A DNA stretch of 64,000 bases from Sphingomonas sp. M1-B02 (GTDB lineage Bacteria > Pseudomonadota > Alphaproteobacteria > Sphingomonadales > Sphingomonadaceae). The notes below the pieces were generated by a model. That model was not told where the DNA came from. It was given only the letters and a program-made list of their open reading frames with translations, and ran no database searches. The position numbers were made by a program, and so were the translations under genes. Within the stretch, counting starts at the first letter, position 1, and the number at the start of each line of letters is the position of its first letter. The DNA is taken from assembly GCF_026167525.1 (NCBI RefSeq), contig NZ_CP110679.1, forward strand, positions 806,001 to 870,000, written 5' to 3'. This document shows positions 15,672 through 48,149 of the stretch, piece after piece.

Positions 15672-16915
15672 CCGACATCACCCGTGACCGCCCGCTCGAA
15701 GGGCTGCGCGTCATCGATCTCACCCGCGCGCTGGCCGGCCCCTATGCCACGCTGCTGCTCGCCGGGCTCGGCGCCGAAGTCATCAAGGTCGAGGACCCCA
15801 AGGGCGGCGACCTGGCGCGCGACAACAGCCCCTATGTCGGCCGCGACGGGATCACCGTCGATCGCCGCCACGACGACGACGTCTCGATCAGCCACCTGAC
15901 GCGCGCCCGCGGCAAGCTGGGCGTCACGCTGAACCTCAAGCAGCCCGAGGCGCGCGAGGTGTTCCTCGATCTCGTCCGCACCGCCGACATCGTTGTCGAG
16001 AATTTCACCGCCGGCACCGCCGACCGCCTCGGCGTCGGCTATGAAGCGGCGAAAGCCGTCAATCCGCGGCTGATCTATTGCTCGCTCTCCGGCTTCGGCG
16101 CGACCGCGCCCGAGGGCGGCAAGGCGATGGACATCATCATCCAGGCATTGTCGGGCGCGATGTTCGCGAGCGGCGGGCCGGGCGAGCCGCCGGTCCGCAT
16201 CGGCATCCCGATCGCCGACATGCTCGCGCCGGTCTTCTCGGTGATCGGCATCCTCTCCGCGCTCGAACAGCGCCACCGCACCGGCATCGGCCAGCATATC
16301 GACGTATCGATGCTCGGCGCGCTCACCAGCTTCGTCGCGATCGAGAATTGGTCGGCGATGGCGGCGGCAGGGATGCAGGCGCGCACCGGCCTCACCGTCC
16401 AGCGCCTCTCGCCGTTCGGCGTGTTCGAATGCGCCGACGGCTATATCGCCCTGGTCGCGGTGCATGAGAAGCTGGCGCTCGGCCTGTTCCGCGCGATGGG
16501 ACAGCCCGAACTCTCGAGCGACCCGCGCTTCGCCAGCCGCGACACCCGCGTAGCCAATGCCGCGGTGCTCGAGGCGACGATCAACGCCTGGTCGCGCAAT
16601 CTGCCGGTGGCGGCCGTCGTCGCGGCGCTGGAGGCGGAGGGCGTGCCCGTCGCCCCCGTCCGCCATCCCGAGGATGCGCTGCTCGACGATCGCGTGATCA
16701 GCCGGCACGAGGCGGTGCCGGTGACGCACCCGAACTACAGCTCGGCGGTCGATCTGCGCACGGCGGGCATCCCGATCGTCTTTTCCGGCGCCGACACCGG
16801 TTTCGACGATGTCATGCCTATCAAGGTCGGCGAGCATAACGATCGCGTGCTGGGCGACGCGCTTGGTTACTCCGCCGAACGCATTGCCGAGCTGCGCGCA
16901 AAGGGCGTGATCTGA
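15668..16915 (+). CDS. CaiB/BaiF family III CoA-transferase (4 of 4)
   Basis: A 415-residue family III CoA-transferase with GLRVIDLTRALAGPYATLLLAGLGAEVIKVE, VVENFTAGTADRLGVGYE, the catalytic aspartate D184 in PIADMLAP and LEQRHRTGIGQHIDVSML. The overall pattern is that of succinyl-CoA- or formyl-CoA-type transferases. It overlaps the previous gene by four bases and its TGA shares one base with the ATG of the dehydratase-like gene, so all are in one translational unit. Confidence 0.92.
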   Translation: MTDITRDRPLEGLRVIDLTRALAGPYATLLLAGLGAEVIKVEDPKGGDLARDNSPYVGRDGITVDRRHDDDVSISHLTRARGKLGVTLNLKQPEAREVFLDLVRTADIVVENFTAGTADRLGVGYEAAKAVNPRLIYCSLSGFGATAPEGGKAMDIIIQALSGAMFASGGPGEPPVRIGIPIADMLAPVFSVIGILSALEQRHRTGIGQHIDVSMLGALTSFVAIENWSAMAAAGMQARTGLTVQRLSPFGVFECADGYIALVAVHEKLALGLFRAMGQPELSSDPRFASRDTRVANAAVLEATINAWSRNLPVAAVVAALEAEGVPVAPVRHPEDALLDDRVISRHEAVPVTHPNYSSAVDLRTAGIPIVFSGADTGFDDVMPIKVGEHNDRVLGDALGYSAERIAELRAKGVI

Positions 16916-19347
16916 TGACCGATGCGGCAGCGCGCCTGATCGCGGCCTGCGACGATCCCGGCGCCGTCGCCGATCGCCTGCGCGGCGAAGGCGCGCGGGT
17001 CATCCGCGTGCTCGGCCAGGACGCACCCTATGCGCTGCTGCGCGCCGCCGGCTTCGCGCCGGTGCGAATGGTTCCCCGTCCCGGCCCGACGCCTGACGCC
17101 GATCTGCTCGCCGGAGACGGCACGCTCTCGCACCGCGGACGATCGCTGCTGCAACAGATCGTCGCCGACAGCAGCGGCGACGCCTTGCTCTTCACCCACG
17201 CCGACAGCGAGCTCCCCCAGCTGTTCGCCGCGGTGCGCGAACTGCTCCGCACCGGCGACATGCCGCCGCGCCCGGTCCATATGCTCGATTTGCTGCATCT
17301 GCCGCGCGAATCCAGCCGCACGTACAACCAGGGCCGGATCGCGGCGCTGGTCGAGTGGCTTAGCCACAACTATCCTCCCCGGCACGGGGAGGGGGACCAT
17401 GCGCAGCATGGTGGAGGGGGCGCGCCACAGGCGGCGGGGCCCGCGGATAGCCCCCTCCGTCAGCCTTCGGCTGCCACCTCCCCGTTCCGGGGAGGATCGA
17501 GTGATGCCCTCGCCACAACCACCGACGAAGAGCGCACCCGCCCCGCCGCCATCGCCCACCTCACCGGCACGCTGCGCATCGCCGCCATCGCCGCGGCCCA
17601 CGCCCTGCCCCCGACGGAATGGCGGGACCTGGTCGCCGCGGCCACAAGCGACAGCGAAGGCACCCCGGTCTTCGTCCTCGGCTCGGCCCATTATTCGACC
17701 GCCCGCCAGCGCGAGCTTGCGACGCGCGGCCTCCGCATGATCGGCGACGATCAGGAATGGGGCGATCCGCTGGTCGATGCCTGGGGCAATACCCCCGACA
17801 CGCCGGAAGGCTTCGCCGAGCCCGCGCGCCTGACTCCACGAATGCTCGCCCCCGCCCCCGCGCGGCTGGAGCATATCGTCGCCCGGATGGAAAAGCTGGG
17901 CACAACCCACGCTATCATCGTCGAATCCGATCGCGATGAGGCGACAGCTTGGGATGCGGGCTGGTTCGAGCGCGAACTCGGCGCGCGCGGCATCACCGTC
18001 GAGCGGATCGGCGCCCCCGCCCCCCTCCCCGCCGCCGACAAGGGCCCGGCACCTGCCCGCAAGCCGAGCGACGGCCGCCGTAGCCGCAAATCGCTCGCCT
18101 CGCTCGCCGGCTTCGGCGCGTTCCAGCGCGACTGGTTCCAGGGCCTGCGCGCGCAGGTAGACGGCGGCGCGCCGCTTGCCGTCGTCAACGCCAACAGCCC
18201 GCAGGAAATCCTGCGCGCGATGGACGTGCCGTTCGTGGTCAACCAATGGTGGGCGTCTATCGCCGCCGCCAAGCAGCAGTCGCCGCGCTATTTCCAGCTG
18301 CTGCGCGATCACGGCTATCCCAGCGACGCCGAGGCCTATAGCTCGCAAGGCCTCGCCGCCGCCTTCGATACCGACGCGGAACAGGCACCCTGGGGCGGCC
18401 TCCCCCGCCCGGCTTATGTCCAGGCAGTGCTCGGCACCGATGCCACCCCAAGGATCTTCGAACATTGGGCGCGCGAGACCGGCGCCGACCTGTTCCTGTT
18501 CGAGCGCAGCATCGAAAGCCGCCTCGAAATCCCGCTCGATTGGTGGGACAGCCTGCAGGACCGCTGGGACGAGGTCATCGAGCCGCACCGGATCGCGCTG
18601 ATGGTCGAGGAACTGCAGGCGATGGTCGCGCAGATCGAAGCGACCAGCGACCGCCGCTTCGACCCCGTAAAGTTCGCCGAGATCATGGATCTGGTGAACG
18701 AGCAGGAGGATTATTACCGCAAGACCCGCGACCTGATCGCCGGCTCCTCCCCCGTGCCCGTATCGGTCGCCGATACGATGCCCGCGACGATGGTCCCGCA
18801 ATGGCATCGCGGCACCGTCTGGGCGCGCGACGCCGCACGCGATTTCTACGAGGAAGTGCGCGACCGCCACGAGAAGGGCGAAGCCGCCTGCCTGGGCGAG
18901 AAGCTTCGCCTGATGTGGGTCGGCCGCGGCATGTGGAGCGACATGGGCTTCTACCAGCGCTGGGAGGAAAGCCACGGCGCGGTGTTCGTCTGGTCGATGT
19001 ATCTCGCGCTCGCCGCCGACGGCTATATCCGCCGCACGAACGCGGGGCAGGACCCGATGCGTGCGCTCGCCGCGCGCTTCGTGACGATGGGCGACGAATT
19101 GCGCATGCCCAGCTGGGCGGGCGCCTGGCATGTCCGCGAGGCTGAGAGCCATGCGGTGGACGGCGCCGTGGCGCTGTCCGATGCCGATCCCTTCGTGTTG
19201 CGCGCATTGCGCCGAGCGGGGGTTCCCGTGCTATCGCTCGATCTCGACAATTATAATCGCGAAGCCAGCGACGAAGATGCCGTGGATCGCCAGATCGCGG
19301 CCTTCCTGGAGGGCCCGGCAACCGATTACGCGAAGCGGCGGGGCTAA
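16915..19347 (+). CDS. Duplicated 2-hydroxyacyl-CoA dehydratase-like protein without cluster cysteines
   Basis: An 810-residue protein that I read as two tandem HgdB/BcrC-type halves (about 1-370 and 390-800). Half 1 has DALLFTHADS (96-98, where cluster-binding homologues have Cys-Asp-Ser) and GTPVFVLGSAHY. Half 2 has VPFVVNQWWASIAAA and HGYPSDAEAYSS (D471-Y475, where homologues have an x-C-S-Y segment). The whole protein contains only two cysteines (about residue 12 and in EAACLGEK), too few for the [4Fe-4S] clusters of this oxygen-sensitive family, and no ATP-dependent activator gene lies nearby. It may act on a hydroxyacyl-CoA made by the four upstream CoA-transferases, but by different chemistry, or have a binding role. 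A palindromic repeat is inserted in frame at residues about 154-194. Family assignment is moderate; function unknown. Confidence 0.62.
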   Translation: MTDAAARLIAACDDPGAVADRLRGEGARVIRVLGQDAPYALLRAAGFAPVRMVPRPGPTPDADLLAGDGTLSHRGRSLLQQIVADSSGDALLFTHADSELPQLFAAVRELLRTGDMPPRPVHMLDLLHLPRESSRTYNQGRIAALVEWLSHNYPPRHGEGDHAQHGGGGAPQAAGPADSPLRQPSAATSPFRGGSSDALATTTDEERTRPAAIAHLTGTLRIAAIAAAHALPPTEWRDLVAAATSDSEGTPVFVLGSAHYSTARQRELATRGLRMIGDDQEWGDPLVDAWGNTPDTPEGFAEPARLTPRMLAPAPARLEHIVARMEKLGTTHAIIVESDRDEATAWDAGWFERELGARGITVERIGAPAPLPAADKGPAPARKPSDGRRSRKSLASLAGFGAFQRDWFQGLRAQVDGGAPLAVVNANSPQEILRAMDVPFVVNQWWASIAAAKQQSPRYFQLLRDHGYPSDAEAYSSQGLAAAFDTDAEQAPWGGLPRPAYVQAVLGTDATPRIFEHWARETGADLFLFERSIESRLEIPLDWWDSLQDRWDEVIEPHRIALMVEELQAMVAQIEATSDRRFDPVKFAEIMDLVNEQEDYYRKTRDLIAGSSPVPVSVADTMPATMVPQWHRGTVWARDAARDFYEEVRDRHEKGEAACLGEKLRLMWVGRGMWSDMGFYQRWEESHGAVFVWSMYLALAADGYIRRTNAGQDPMRALAARFVTMGDELRMPSWAGAWHVREAESHAVDGAVALSDADPFVLRALRRAGVPVLSLDLDNYNREASDEDAVDRQIAAFLEGPATDYAKRRG
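17373..17496. repeat. Palindromic repeat inserted in frame in the dehydratase-like gene
   Basis: About 124 bp. Outer ends are TCCTCCCCGGCACGGGGAGG and CCTCCCCGTTCCGGGGAGGA, each a hairpin and inverted relative to each other; the interior pairs GGTGGAGGGGGC with GCCCCCTCCGTC. It is read through in frame, adding a Gly/Pro/Gln-rich peptide (GEGDHAQ..., [11 protein letters not shown]) of about 41 residues to the protein. The same element in the same reading frame occurs in methylmalonyl-CoA mutase at 41321-41443; an intergenic copy is at 47960-48087. Confidence 0.88.
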
Positions 19348-39608: not shown

Positions 39609-40703
39609 TCACTCCGCGGCCATCCGCTGCGGTTCCGCCTCGAGCGACCTCAGTCCAAGCCGCGCGAACAACGCCGCATCCTTGTCGTCACCCGCATTGC
39701 CCGTGGTCAGCAGCTTGTCCCCCGTAAAGATCGAGTTCGCCCCCGCCAGGAAGCACAAGGCCTGCGTCGCATCGCTCATGCTCTCGCGCCCCGCGCTCAG
39801 CCGGACCATGCTCGCGGGCATCGTGATCCGCGCCACCGCGATCGTCCGCACGAACTCGATGTCGTCGATCTGCGCCAGCGGCGTATCGGCCAGCATATCG
39901 CCCAGCACCGTGCCCTTCACCGGCACCAGCGCATTGACCGGAACGCTCTCCGGGTGATGCGGCAAGCTAGCAAGCGCATGAATGAAGCCGACCCGATCGC
40001 TGCGCGTCTCGCCCATCCCGACGATCCCGCCGCAGCACACGTTGATCCCGGCCGCGCGCACGCTCTCCAGCGTCTCGATCCGATCCTCGAAGCTGCGCGT
40101 CGAGATGACGTTCGCGTAATTCTCGGGCGAAGTATCGATATTATGGTTGTAGTAATCGAGCCCCGCCGCCGCGAGCTGCTCGGCCTGCCCCGGCGTCAGC
40201 ATGCCCAGCGTCATGCACGTCTCGAGCCCCATCTGCCGCACGCCCTGCACCATCGCGACGATCGCGGGCATGTCGCGATCCTTGGGCTCGCGCCACGCCG
40301 CGCCCATGCAGAAGCGCGACGAGCCATTGTCCTTCGCCTGCGCCGCCGCCTGCAGCACCGCGCGGACGTCCATCAGCTTGGTGGCCTTCAGCCCGGTCTC
40401 GGCGCTCGCCGACTGGTTGCAATAGCCGCAATCCTCGGGGCAGCCGCCGGTCTTGATCGACAGCAGGGTCGAGCGCTGGACGGCATGCGGATCATGGCGC
40501 GCGCGGTGGACCTCCGCGGCGTGGAACACGAGTTCGGTGAAGGGTAGATCGAACAACGCGGCGATCTCGGCGCGCGTCCAGTCGCTCCTGATCTCCCCTC
40601 CCGCTTGCGGGAGGGGTCGGGGGAGGGCCTGTTCGAGACGGCCTGGTGACAGCCCCTCCCCTAGCCCCTCCCGCAAGCGGGAGGGGAACTTGGTGTCACT
40701 CAT
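39609..40703 (-). CDS. bioB: Biotin synthase BioB with an in-frame repeat near the N-terminus
   Basis: A radical-SAM enzyme that inserts sulphur into dethiobiotin, the last step of biotin synthesis. The 364-residue product has the CxxxCxxC cluster motif [26 protein letters not shown] and [12 protein letters not shown], all canonical. The start ATG (40703) overlaps the mutase stop (ATGA). After only about five residues (MSDTK) a 95-bp palindromic element is translated through, adding about 30 residues ([14 protein letters not shown]...LPQAGGEI) before the true N-terminal region [16 protein letters not shown]. The gene supplies the cofactor for PccA in the same operon. Confidence 0.95.
40593..40687. 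repeat. Palindromic repeat inside the 5' end of bioB
   Basis: About 95 bp with inverted ends TCTCCCCTCCCGCTTGCGGG and CCCGCAAGCGGGAGGGGA and inner pairs GGGGAGGG/CCCCTCCC. It is in frame in bioB, immediately after the coupled start codon, so the bioB start region on the mRNA must fold into a strong hairpin. Same style as 1357-1464 and 46431-46553. Confidence 0.85.
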
Positions 40704-42952
40704 TCCGCAGCCTCCCCGACCGGCGCCATATTATGCCCGAGCAGCCGCAACACTTCCTCCGCCGCCTGCACCAGATTGGTGCCCGGCCCGAAGATCGCCT
40801 GCACCCCCGCTTCGCGCAGAAACTCATAATCGCGCGCCGGGATGACCCCGCCGGCGATCACCTTGATATCCGCCCGCCCCGCATCGTGCAGCGCGCGGAT
40901 CAGCTCGGGGATCAGCGTCTTGTGCCCCGCCGCAAGCGACGAGGCGCCGACCACATCGACGTCCTTCTCGATCGCCAGCTTCGCACTTTCGGACGGAGTC
41001 TGGAACAGCGGCCCGGGCACGATCTCGAACCCCAGATCGCCGAAAGCAGAAGAGACCAGGTTCGCGCCGCGATCATGCCCGTCCTGCCCCATCTTGGCGA
41101 CGAGCATCCGGGGTTTGCGGCCGAGCCGGCGTTCGGTGGCGTCGACCCCGTCCTTGAGCCGCGCCCATTGCGCGTCGAATTCGTAGGCGCCGCCGTAGAT
41201 GCCCTGCACCGGCGTCGGCTGGGTGGCGTAACGCCCGAAACCCGCCTCCATCGCGCTGCTGATCTCGCCCAGCGTGGCGCGCGCGCGGGCGGCCGTGACG
41301 GCGAGTTCGAGCAGATTCGATCCTCCCCGGCACGGGGAGGTGGCAGCCGCAGGCTGACGGAGGGGGCTCTCCACGGAGGATGTCGCTTGTGGCACGCCCC
41401 CTCCATTTGCCTGCGCATGGTCCCCCTCCCCGTTCCGGGGAGAAACAGCAGCCGCCTTACGCAGCGCCTCGAGCGCCGCCTGGCACGCCGCTTCGTCGCG
41501 CGCCGCCTTGACCCGCTGGATCCGCGCGATCTGCGATTCCCGCACCGCATGATTGTCGATGTCGAGCGTCTCGATCGGGTCCTCATCGGCCTTTCGATAC
41601 TTATTGACCCCGACGATCACCTGCTCGCCGCGATCGACCCGCGCCGCCTGCGCCGCCGCCGCCTCCTCGATCATCCGCTTCGGCCAGCCATGCGCGACGG
41701 CCTTGGCCATGCCGCCATCGGCCTCGACCTTCTCGATGATCGCCCAGGCCTTGTCGACGAGCTCCTGGGTCAGCGCCTCGACATAATAGGACCCGCCCAG
41801 GGGATCGACGACCTTGGTCATCCCGGTCTCTTCCTGGAGCACGATCTGCGTGTTCCGCGCGATCCGTGCCGAGAAATCGGTCGGCAGCGCAATCGCCTCG
41901 TCGAGCGCGTTGGTGTGCAGCGACTGCGTGCCCCCCAGCATCGCCGCCATCGCCTCGATCGTCGTGCGCATCACATTGTTGTACGGATCCTGCTCGGTGA
42001 GGCTGACCCCCGACGTCTGGCAATGCGTGCGCAGCATCTTCGATCGCTCGTCCTTGGCGCCGAGCCCGGTCATCACCCGATGCCACAGCACCCGCGCCGC
42101 GCGCAGCTTGGCGATCTCCATGAAGAAATTCATGCCGATCGCGAAGAAGAACGAGAGCCTGCCGGCAAATTTATCGATATCGAGGCCCGAAGCCACACCA
42201 TATTTCACATATTCCATGCCGTCGGCGATGGTGAAGGCCAGCTCCTGCACCTGCGTCGCCCCGGCCTCCTGCATATGATAGCCGGATATCGAAATGCTGT
42301 TGAATTTCGGCATGTTGGCGGAGGTATATGCGAAAATGTCCGAGATGATCCGCATGCTCGGCTCGGGCGGGTAGATATAGGTGTTGCGAACCATGAACTC
42401 CTTGAGGATGTCGTTCTGGATGGTCCCGTCGAGCAGGCTCTTGTCGACCCCCTGCTCCTCGCCGGCGACGATGAAGAAGGCCAGGATCGGGATCACTGCG
42501 CCGTTCATCGTCATGCTGACCGACATCCGGTCGAGCGGGATGCCGTCGAACAGGATCTTCATATCCTCGACGCTGTCGATCGCCACCCCCGCCTTGCCGA
42601 CATCGCCGGTGACGCGCGGATGGTCGCTGTCATAGCCGCGGTGGGTGGCGAGATCGAAGGCGACGCTCAGCCCCTTCTGCCCCGCGGCGAGATTGCGGCG
42701 GTAGAAGGCGTTGGAGGCCTCCGCGGTCGAGAAGCCGGCATATTGCCGCACGGTCCAGGGCCGCCCGGCATACATCGATGCGCGAACGCCGCGGGTGAAG
42801 GGCGCGAAACCGGGCAGGCCGGGGTCGATATTGGCGACGTCTTCCTGCGTGTAGAGCGGTTTGACGGCGATACCTTCTGGCGTGTGCCAGGTCAGATCGC
42901 GGCCCTTCACTTCCTTGGCGGCAGCGGCCTCCCACTCGGCAAGTGTGCTCAA
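40700..42952 (-). CDS. scpA: Methylmalonyl-CoA mutase (cobalamin-dependent, fused large-type)
   Basis: It interconverts (R)-methylmalonyl-CoA and succinyl-CoA using adenosylcobalamin, bringing propionyl-CoA into the TCA cycle. About 750 residues, with the TIM-barrel substrate domain ([46 protein letters not shown]) and C-terminal B12-binding domain with the cobalt-ligating His in [14 protein letters not shown] and a GG...GVIPARDY segment. I choose the TTG at 42952 ([19 protein letters not shown]), with GGGAGAG six bases upstream, because sequence beyond it is only repeat. The 41321-41443 repeat adds about 43 residues in the linker between the barrel and the [20 protein letters not shown] segment. 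Confidence 0.95.
41321..41443. repeat. Palindromic repeat inserted in frame in methylmalonyl-CoA mutase
   Basis: About 123 bp with ends TCCTCCCCGGCACGGGGAGG and CCCTCCCCGTTCCGGGGAGA. On the gene strand it encodes the peptide ...GEGDHAQ...GGG.PQA...[15 protein letters not shown], nearly identical in length, frame and sequence to that at 17373-17496 in an unrelated protein. It lies in an inter-domain linker, a site likely to tolerate insertion. Confidence 0.9.
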
Positions 42953-42956
42953 ATTC

Positions 42957-43084
42957 GCTCTCCCGTTGGGAGAGGGAGGGAGGCGCGAAGCGCCGGAAGG
43001 GTGAGGGCCGAATGAGGGCAACTGTCCTCACCCTTCCCACCGCTAGCGCGGCGGGCCCCTTCCCTCTCCCAACGGGAGAGGGAG
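42957..43084. repeat. Palindromic repeat between enoyl-CoA hydratase and mutase genes
   Basis: About 128 bp, outer arms GCTCTCCCGTTGGGAGAGGG and CCCTCTCCCAACGGGAGAGG, inner arms GGAAGGGTGAGG/CCTCACCCTTCC. On the mutase strand, its end nearest the gene ends GGGAGAGC and supplies the apparent Shine-Dalgarno sequence for the TTG start at 42952. Same subclass as 48910-49040. Confidence 0.85.
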
Positions 43085-46558: not shown

Positions 46559-47959
46559 ATGGTGACCCCCCGCCGCCGCCTGTTCGAGGGCTTCCGCCTC
46601 CGCGATCTCCGCCGTCGCCTGGTGCTGAGCCAGGCGGCGATGGCCGCGCGGCTCGGCATCTCGGTCTCCTATCTCTCGCAGATCGAGAATAACGACCGCC
46701 CGATCACCGACGTCGTCCTTCTGGCGCTCGCCCGCGAGTTCCCGCTCGAGGCAGCCGAGATCGGCGCCGCCACCGAAACCTCCGCCCTCCTCCGCACGAT
46801 CGACGCCGCGACCGACAGCAGCGTCCCTGCCGACCGGGTCGCCGAGGGCGACGTCCGCCGCGGACTCGAACAACAGCCGCTCCTCGCCCGCCGCCTCGTC
46901 GCGCTCCACGACGCCTATCGCCGCACCCAGGAGCAGCTCCGCGCGCTCGACGATCGCTTCGACACCGGTTCGATCGATTCCGCCCCGCTCCCCTGGGAGG
47001 AAGTACGCGACTGGTTTCAGGCCGAGGGCAATTATGTCGATACGATCGATCGCGCCGCCGAAACCCTGTCGGGTTTGCTCGAACCCGGCACGCACGGTCT
47101 CGAAGCGCGACTGCGCGACCGGCACGGCATCCGCACGCTCAGCGAGGATGGCGACGGCAGCCAGCTCAGCCGCTTCGATCCGGCGGCGCGCACGCTGGCG
47201 CTCAACACCGCGCTCCCGCCCGAAAGCCGCTATTTTCTGCTCGCGCACCGTCTCGTCCGCACCGAATTCGCCGAGGCGATGCGCCACGTGGTCGCGCAAT
47301 CGGGCGCCGCGAGCCACGCCTCGCGCGAATTGCTGTCGGTCGGCCTCGCCAACTATGCCGCCGGCGCGCTGCTGATGCCCTATGACGCCTTCCGCACCGC
47401 CGCGCGCGACGTCCGCCACGATATCGATCGCCTGCGCCAGCGCTTCGGGGTGAGCTTCGAGCAGGCCTGTCACCGCCTTTCCACCCTCCAGCGCCCCGGC
47501 GCCGCGGGCCTGCCCTTCTTCTTCTGCCGCGTGGACATGGCGGGCAACATCACCAAGCGCCACTCGGCCACGCGCCTGCAATTCGCCCGCTTCGGTGGCG
47601 CATGCCCGCTCTGGGTGGTGCATGAGGCGGTGGCGATCCCCGATCGCATCCTCGTCCAGCTCGCCGAAATGCCCGACGGCACGCGCTACGTCTCGATGGC
47701 CAAGGGGCTCGTCAAACCCTCGGGCAGCTACGCCCGCCCGCCGCGACGCTATGCGGTGGCGCTGGGCTGCGAGGAAATGCACGCCGCGGACTTCGTCTAT
47801 GCCGACGATCTCCGTCCGGGCGGCGCGGCGACTCCGATCGGCGCCTCATGCCGCATCTGCCCCCGCGCCGACTGCGACCAGCGCGCCTTCCCGCCCGCGG
47901 GCTCGGTGATCGAGATCGACGCGGATCGGCGCTCGGTTGTGCCCTACGCGTTCCGCTAA
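46559..47959 (+). CDS. Short-chain acyl-CoA regulator: XRE HTH + IrrE-like domain (RamB/MccR/ScfR type)
   Basis: A 466-residue transcriptional regulator. It has an N-terminal XRE helix-turn-helix ([32 protein letters not shown], about 18-50), a middle domain related to ImmA/IrrE ([28 protein letters not shown], but without the metalloprotease HExxH) and a C-terminal DUF2083-like domain ending in a four-cysteine-like motif ([17 protein letters not shown]). Proteins of this architecture control propionate, acetate and methylcitrate genes in other bacteria, probably by sensing acyl-CoA. It is divergent from pccB with a candidate operator between them. Confidence 0.88.
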
Positions 47960-48087
47960 TCCTCCCCGGCACGGGGAGGGGGACCCGCGCCCGCAGGGCG
48001 TGGTGGAGGGGGCGGGCCGCGAGCGACGCCCCCAGAGGAGAGCCCCCTCCGTCACGCTTCGCGTGCCACCTCCCCGTGCCGGGGAGG
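47960..48087. repeat. Palindromic repeat after the regulator gene
   Basis: About 128 bp with arms TCCTCCCCGGCACGGGGAGG and CCTCCCCGTGCCGGGGAGGA and inner GTGGAGGGGGC/GCCCCCTCCGTCAC. It starts immediately after the TAA of the regulator, where it may act as a transcription terminator. Intergenic member of the class inserted in frame at 17373 and 41321. Confidence 0.85.
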
Positions 48088-48149
48088 AATTGATCGCGCC
48101 GCCAGATCCATGGCATACCGACTCAACGAAAAATCCGGGAGAGAATGCA

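Follow-up and report, generated by a model that had tools for sequence, protein, structure and literature searches.

In-frame insertions of palindromic DNA into protein-coding genes are best known from Rickettsia, and we know of no transposase identified for the elements involved there, the Rickettsia palindromic elements (RPEs). In the excerpted text of PMC2229807, RPEs are palindromes of 105-146 bp found in 19 protein genes, and for one host the peptide is reported to be present in an active product with an altered affinity for the substrate. RPE-1 resides in Rickettsia TruB, the TruB gene of R. conorii being among the hosts (PMC3733652, excerpts). The same excerpts, from Di Nocera et al. 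2013, describe REPs of the CGTC type from S. wittichii and S. chlorophenolicum, REPs lying within genes of S. alaskensis and E. litoralis (TruB and tRNA synthetases among them), and one case, recB of two Xanthomonas, in which different REPs occupy about the same site; where other genes of a single category carry REPs, the sites differ, and in many repeats the CGTC motif is altered to CCTC. The enterobacterial RU-1/ERIC, RU-2 and RU-3 are repeats found fused to ORFs (Delihas 2007, PMC2759123; PMC2229807), and repeated use of one loop is not described for them in the parts of these two papers drawn on here. The Caulobacter repeat CIR is not intragenic and contains stops in all six frames (PMC2229807, excerpts).

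The window analysed here is a stretch of 64,000 nucleotides (positions 806001-870000) from the genome of Sphingomonas sp. M1-B02 (one contig, 3,605,070 bases), denoted G000 below. It contains three copies of a palindromic repeat, the CCTCCCC family, along with two weaker palindromes:

16915-19347, plus strand: ORF of the HGD-D type (2-hydroxyglutaryl-CoA dehydratase D-component), 810 aa, with the Pfam HGD-D match at 427-799
17373-17496, plus strand: repeat copy 1, inside the HGD-D-type ORF, in frame in phase C, read as PPRHGEGD...
40593-40688, unstranded: weak palindrome, 41 bits to model R1, translated at the N-terminal end of the BioB ORF (39609-40703, minus strand)
40700-43021, minus strand: methylmalonyl-CoA mutase (MCM) ORF, with Pfam MM_CoA_mutase at 47-596 and B12-binding at 638-753; the start is tentative, given the palindrome at 42959-43079
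41321-41443, minus strand: repeat copy 2, inside the MCM ORF, phase C, read as SPRNGEGD..., flanked by LRKAA and NLLELAV
42959-43079, unstranded: weak palindrome, 50 bits to model R1, spanning the 5' end of the MCM ORF
47960-48088, plus strand: repeat copy 3, intergenic, with a ScfRs-type regulator ORF (46559-47959) on one side and an Aldolase_II gene after it

An earlier note on this DNA had placed a repeat at 17373-17496 with a second copy at 41321-41443, and these coordinates prove right: the two copies align over 122 bp with 85.2% identity (E 4e-36) and are strongly palindromic, with an MFE of -86 to -97 kcal/mol whichever strand is folded. The claim that both are read in frame, in the same phase and without stops, in an HGD-D-type protein and in MCM likewise stands, with ORFs and Pfam in agreement, and the resulting peptides are alike. 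Copy 1 is read as PPRHGEGDHAQHGGGGAPQAAGPADSPLRQPSAATSPFRGG and, together with one flanking base on each side (ATCC...GGAT), makes up a surplus of 126 nt (42 codons) over the empty orthologue. The MCM insert covers approximately residues 525-566, within the last part of the MM_CoA_mutase match. Copy 3 begins directly past the stop codon (47957-47959) of the regulator ORF. An Rfam search of the window returned nothing but one tRNA, and the quality of the AlphaFold model of MCM (8 sequences, mean pLDDT 49.3) is too low for use.

A census of G000 by a sequence search and a covariance model from 27 copies gives 50 places that were pursued, 36 strong and 14 weak, the 36 strong copies measuring 111-132 bp. 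The unit of about 126 bp has the form ATCCTCCCCG-GNA-CGGGGAGGGGGACC-(variable hairpin)-GGTGGAGGGGGC-centre-GCCCCCTCCACC-(variable hairpin)-GGTCCCCCTCCCCG-NNN-CGGGGAGGAT, and alignment of the copies resolves it into four hairpins in a near-symmetric arrangement. By eye, the top strand of the first hairpin shows a GNA triloop in 27 of the 27 aligned copies, and its mirror form, TNC, is found in the last hairpin of 24 of the 27. Between them, the two inner hairpins are free to change in both sequence and length while keeping their complementarity. The base beside TCC...GGA, seen outward, is A in 79% of 72 flanks (one of them, at L005, misplaced), so that the unit is best written ATCC...GGAT. For 22 of the 36 strong copies, an adjacent gene has its stop codon 0-20 nt away, a count that excludes the TruB copy (L004), for which the ORF scored is on the opposite strand of the host gene.

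At the reach of the query, the family is present in 24 of 25 genomes of the same genus; outside the genus, a short partial match occurs in 2 of 16 genomes. A pattern scan of named genomes yields at least 119 stretches, and the 80 loci listed include matches in Sphingomonas, Sphingopyxis, Sphingobium, Novosphingobium and Sphingorhabdus as well as, within Caulobacterales, Brevundimonas, Caulobacter and Phenylobacterium. A covariance-model match at E <= 0.001 is found for 59 of these 80 loci, and nine listed loci labelled Clostridia, Selenomonadaceae or Oscillospiraceae give no R1 match. Mobilization of the RAYT/IS200 type, suggested by the paired hairpins with GNA triloops, was considered and dropped because the Y1/RAYT transposase domain (PF01797) is not found in G000, in a search with positive controls, and is rare in the genus (4 of 61 genomes, as against 24 of 25 for the element); the search for an autonomous partner covered PF01797. 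In the empty-site comparison at HGD-D, where the surplus is the 126 nt ATCC...GGAT, no target-site duplication is evident.

Nine of the 36 strong G000 copies reside inside conserved ORFs, all nine in frame and free of stops, and by ORF translation such copies add about 40 amino acids to enzyme loops. The hosts are HGD-D, MCM, TruB, a VWA/AAA-lid protein (by eye, magnesium chelatase subunit D), a BchB-type protein (Oxidored_nitro + PCP_red), GlyS beta, LigD, a GluQ-like tRNA synthetase and the acyltransferase E2; a tenth, weak copy has an ImuB-like host. Were length random modulo 3, the chance of nine in-frame copies would be (1/3)^9 = 5e-5. Another 22 strong copies lie between ORFs of the same strand; the two sides belong to differing Pfam families in 21 of these pairs, and in the remaining one (L019) the right ORF (122 aa) has no Pfam match and the left gene is complete, so that no gene is split out of frame (0 of 22). 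A flank census of named loci comprises 63 places with usable flanks (67 listed; L189, of 330 bases, and four edge rows omitted), 8 of which are in frame inside ORFs, namely TruB twice, E2, GluQ-like, LigD, an NAD-dependent ligase, an Lhr-type helicase and CoaBC, where the insert is of another type and matches R1 weakly. At 15 of the 63, same-strand coding signal across the copy is in differing frames or broken by stops; the split-gene check above covers the 22 G000 pairs. In several hosts (TruB, LigD, E2, the BchB-type protein and CoaBC with its other-type insert), the copy sits between two Pfam domains.

The weight that had been put on the use of the same one of six frames by the two window copies does not survive the census. 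Strong copies have a mean of 5.25 open frames out of six, compared with 3.99 in dinucleotide shuffles (n = 36), all six being open in 16 copies and five in 14, and all three phases occur among the nine in-gene copies (A 4, B 3, C 2; E2 by eye). The element can thus be read almost any way, so that the frame shared by copies 1 and 2 does not characterize the family, and HGD-D and MCM agree partly by chance. Individual sites do show a preferred phase (GlyS A 7, B 1; TruB B 12, A 5; by eye, GluQ A 3 and MCM C 4, B 1), and the MCM insert of one genome, G022, starts in phase B yet reads GEGD. A pure tolerance filter does not predict such site-preferred phases unless some constraint operates at the exact insertion nucleotides.

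Alignment with orthologues lacking the segment, which the earlier note had proposed, yields clean in-frame empty sites within the genus for both MCM and HGD-D. The MCM insert, located between LREGA and NLL, is present in 5 of 22 same-genus loci and missing from the other 17, and the site is empty in 8 of the 8 other-genus loci aligned (seven further order-level MCM matches were left out of the alignment). The HGD-D genes of G015 and G017 have no insert, that of G015 being continuous across the site, as judged by protein alignment. On a tree of 58 genomes derived by a quick search from TruB, with GlyS added for 30 of the genomes, the MCM insert requires a minimum of five changes among 21 genomes and its carriers are scattered (shuffle mean 4.6); it is found in G018 and is missing from the near relative G024. 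In GluQ, 3 of 25 resolved loops contain an insert, accompanied by loss of some target codons, and the other 22 measure 40-41 residues between the motifs used. The LigD loop is resolved in 6 of 30 loci, with another motif in 7, and several resolved loops hold repeats of different families. A protein-database search with the MCM insert region returns 8 matches including its own, all of them MCM.

TruB and GlyS provide the densest record. The TruB loop, from VTIHAL to the ITLTAHVSKGTYIRS strand, is expanded in 31 and short in 27 of 58 resolved Sphingomonas genes (60 loci sampled, 2 unresolved); when the 31 expanded loops are compared with R1, 17 match at >=60 bits, 5 match weakly and 9 have no match. 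Five of the latter (L283, L297, L348, L353 and L361) have, by eye, palindromic ends of other kinds, such as RHPGLVPGS...EQVRGD and RHPGESRDP...FRRDDG, and another of the nine, L366 of G003, shows no clear repeat. The GlyS site, WLVEEGI|LADLAERAARLAKADLVT, is expanded in 25 of 33 resolved loci (40 sampled, 7 unresolved) and is occupied by several families, with one expanded loop (L323) again showing no clear repeat; public GlyS proteins have two more insert sites. These loops are, then, struck repeatedly and by several palindrome families, some of which, for example CGTCATCCC..., look like CGTC REPs. The PDB relatives of GlyS and TruB are near-continuous across the insert site, and in an AlphaFold model of GlyS of fair quality (mean pLDDT 70.7) the insert is a coil between two helices with a pLDDT of about 28-37. 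Searching a protein database with the GlyS insert region gives 38 matches including its own, 35 of which are GlyS, a proportion biased toward GlyS by the few native residues in the query.

Close species differ in what their loops contain. In G053, G009 and G058, the TruB flanks are 94-96% identical and the contents differ: G053 and G009 have one family in common, and G058 has a CCTCCCC element. At the GlyS site of the same three genomes, there is a full element in G058, an apparent 24-bp hairpin scar in G053 and another family in G009. G018 and G024 carry different families, G041 has an insert that the closely related G068 lacks, and G045 has a full TruB element where G048 has an apparent scar; insertion points lie several nucleotides apart between species. 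On the tree of 58 genomes, TruB undergoes 13 changes for any insert and 12 for strong R1 matches; the 13 changes compare with a mean of 19.5 under shuffled labels, only 0.2% of shuffles being as low, so that inheritance accounts for some of the TruB states. Outside the genus, none of 28 TruB loops, drawn from 62 matching genomes of other genera of the class, is expanded (17 have a motif-defined span of 55-56 residues, and inspection by eye shows the other 11 to be short). The 'empty' Sphingomonas loops are 59-62 residues long in 23 of 27 cases, and are read as old scars.

We consider it probable that the CCTCCCC palindromes are non-autonomous mobile elements which survive in genes by virtue of frame and a tolerant site, hit such sites repeatedly and then decay. 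Near-perfect palindromes of about 126 bp would spread through Sphingomonas without a transposase of their own, and most copies would settle in intergenic DNA, often no more than 20 nt from a stop codon. A copy within a gene would be purged unless the length it adds preserves the frame and it has entered a tolerant loop or a domain boundary. Being G+C-rich and nearly stop-free in six frames, an inserted copy would in any phase give a low-complexity loop of about 40 residues, presumably translated and harmless. Given that the proteome would offer few tolerant sites, the TruB, GlyS, MCM and GluQ loops would be hit repeatedly, by the CCTCCCC family and other palindromes alike, and in-gene copies would decay by in-frame internal deletion into short scars. 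A broader proposal, which we put forward tentatively as a possibility, is that certain loops of essential enzymes, at sites of the TruB, GlyS and MCM type, are long-standing landing pads that take in unrelated families in turn, in frame, with scars and replacement, so that mobile DNA would be the main source of change in their length and sequence, perhaps across orders, as RPE-1 in Rickettsia TruB might indicate.

The repeated use of these loops could also be explained by one old insertion per loop that was inherited, with later families replacing it through gene conversion or nested insertion. The clustering of TruB states on the tree beyond shuffles is what such a history predicts, and so are the residues common to G018 and G024 just downstream of their different elements (PLPHAPLDEVTL / PLPHSALEEVTL) and the excess length of most empty Sphingomonas TruB loops (23 of 27) over the 55-56 residues of 17 other-family genes, as if most had once been occupied. 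Nevertheless, the scattered MCM inserts (5 of 21 genomes, with at least five changes, no fewer than in shuffles), the displacement of insertion points between species and the uniform length of the 22 empty GluQ loops argue against it, and we regard a single ancient insertion as unlikely. A selected function at the RNA level, in which a very stable mRNA hairpin close to a boundary between domains would make ribosomes pause or shield the transcript, would account for the MFE of about -90 kcal/mol, the hairpin arms that differ in sequence and remain complementary (by eye), the copies located between two Pfam domains in several hosts and the proximity of 22 of 36 copies to stop codons, as in REPs (PMC3733652, excerpts). 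However, domain boundaries also tolerate inserts, each site examined has many palindrome-free orthologues and the palindrome is lost between close species, which makes such a function quite improbable.

Mobile elements retained through frame and tolerance also account better than two further readings for the state of the genes themselves. If ribosomes hopped over the hairpin, or if the hosts were pseudogenes or the inserts assembly errors, the peptide would not exist; yet a bypass would require neither the frame nor the lack of stops seen in 9 of 9 strong in-gene copies, the GlyS and TruB hosts keep their Pfam domains, and the same loops are expanded across many assemblies (31 for TruB, 25 for GlyS), so that we give this reading very little credence. 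A single element family built for one protein-coding frame has in its favour that HGD-D and 4 of the 5 MCM inserts start in phase C, and that the one starting in phase B, in G022, still reads GEGD; being contradicted genome-wide by the phase census, in G000 as well as at TruB and GlyS, this idea was rejected and has next to no probability left.

Among the described systems, the RPEs are the closest parallel. The window family, at 111-132 bp and 36 strong copies, likewise occurs both between genes and in frame within conserved genes with empty orthologues, and TruB is a host in Rickettsia and Sphingomonas alike. It differs in being G+C-rich (CCTCCCC), in its distribution over Sphingomonadales and Caulobacterales, in using three phases within G000 and in sharing its loops with other palindrome families. 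The RPE-like behaviour claimed by the earlier note is therefore retained for the in-frame palindromes, the apparently intact conserved genes and the empty orthologues, and abandoned for the fixed reading frame. That note had also taken insertions with no frame preference and confined to pseudogenes as evidence against its reading; genome-wide, there is indeed no frame preference, and the hosts do not look like pseudogenes. The CCTCCCC repeats thus look like elements that work in the manner of RPEs and form a separate family, set apart by description and taxa; homology of the two families is unlikely, a judgement based on the taxa and the G+C-rich sequence.

With the GTAG/CGTC REPs, the family shares hairpins less than 20 bp from stop codons, head-to-head dimers and intragenic copies in sphingomonads, including those in TruB and tRNA synthetases. 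Unlike these REPs, it ends in ATCCTCC...GGAGGAT, with no terminal GTAG or CGTC tag (by eye), and its unit comprises four hairpins over about 126 bp, compared with 20-40 bp for theirs; the Y1 transposase of the GTAG type was not found in G000. Given the recorded changes of CGTC to CCTC, there may be a remote link to the CGTC REPs. RU-1/ERIC, RU-2 and RU-3 are similar in that they too are small and mobile and form in-frame fusions with conserved genes, and differ in organisms and hosts, a separation made by description, whereas CIR is comparable as an alphaproteobacterial intergenic repeat with stem-loops, the window family being in addition intragenic and nearly stop-free. The statement that nothing of the kind had been described in sphingomonads was too strong, because intragenic sphingomonad REPs are reported in PMC3733652 (excerpts). 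We found no description of the CCTCCCC family itself in the literature searched, the excerpted text of PMC3733652 included; relative to those excerpts, the basic phenomenon is not new, and the multi-family repeated use of single loops is.

Sphingomonas is a large, mostly free-living genus with in-frame inserts in essential genes, in which close species are numerous enough for gain, replacement and decay to be followed at one site, and this makes it testable whether palindromes survive only where proteins are indifferent or build new protein segments. For annotators and protein engineers, low-complexity segments such as PPRxGEGD, SSPxRGGG and ILPGTGRG in sphingomonad proteins represent repeat DNA rather than domains. 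The family also extends to plasmids, with 14 records containing it (12 from Sphingomonas and 2 from Sphingobium), and three weak, unannotated matches occur in phage records.

Among the Sphingomonas TruB loops that are "empty", that is, not expanded by palindromic inserts, 23 of 27 exceed by 3-7 residues the loop span of other families, measured at 55-56 residues, as expected of scars, the short remnants proposed to remain after in-frame deletion within an inserted repeat. In GlyS, another enzyme with repeatedly expanded loops, alignment A3 reveals at least three insert sites, located after YFVC, after WLVEEGI and after NILKKE. All three sites hold additional sequence in P0012, P0015 and P0044, three of the aligned public proteins, and a duplicated segment is also present in P0022/P0023.

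Two weaker relatives of the repeat lie at the 5' ends of genes in the window:

40593-40688, weakly related palindrome inside the BioB ORF (39609-40703, minus strand)
42959-43079, weak match to the covariance model of the repeat, overlapping the 5' end of the methylmalonyl-CoA mutase (MCM) ORF

Read in the frame of biotin synthase, the former gives [12 protein letters not shown]...[10 protein letters not shown] close to the N-terminus; this segment may be genuine coding sequence or else may reflect a start placed too far upstream. Given the overlap of the latter with the ORF, the mechanically found MCM start is probably within a repeat.

In the flanks of the 36 strong copies in the host genome, the distances to neighbouring stop codons cluster in two ranges, roughly 0-9 nt and 14-17 nt. 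A single SufBD-type gene has one copy on each side:

Host genome 1984942, copy L121
Host genome 1986174, copy L007

The surrounding suf-like cluster encodes an ABC ATPase, a SufBD core protein and a class V aminotransferase.

Plasmids of Sphingomonas parapaucimobilis are a possible vehicle for the repeat: the matches listed include ten plasmid records of this species (NZ_CP155749 to NZ_CP155761), with up to 22 places per record among these matches and one place in a 21.7 kb plasmid.
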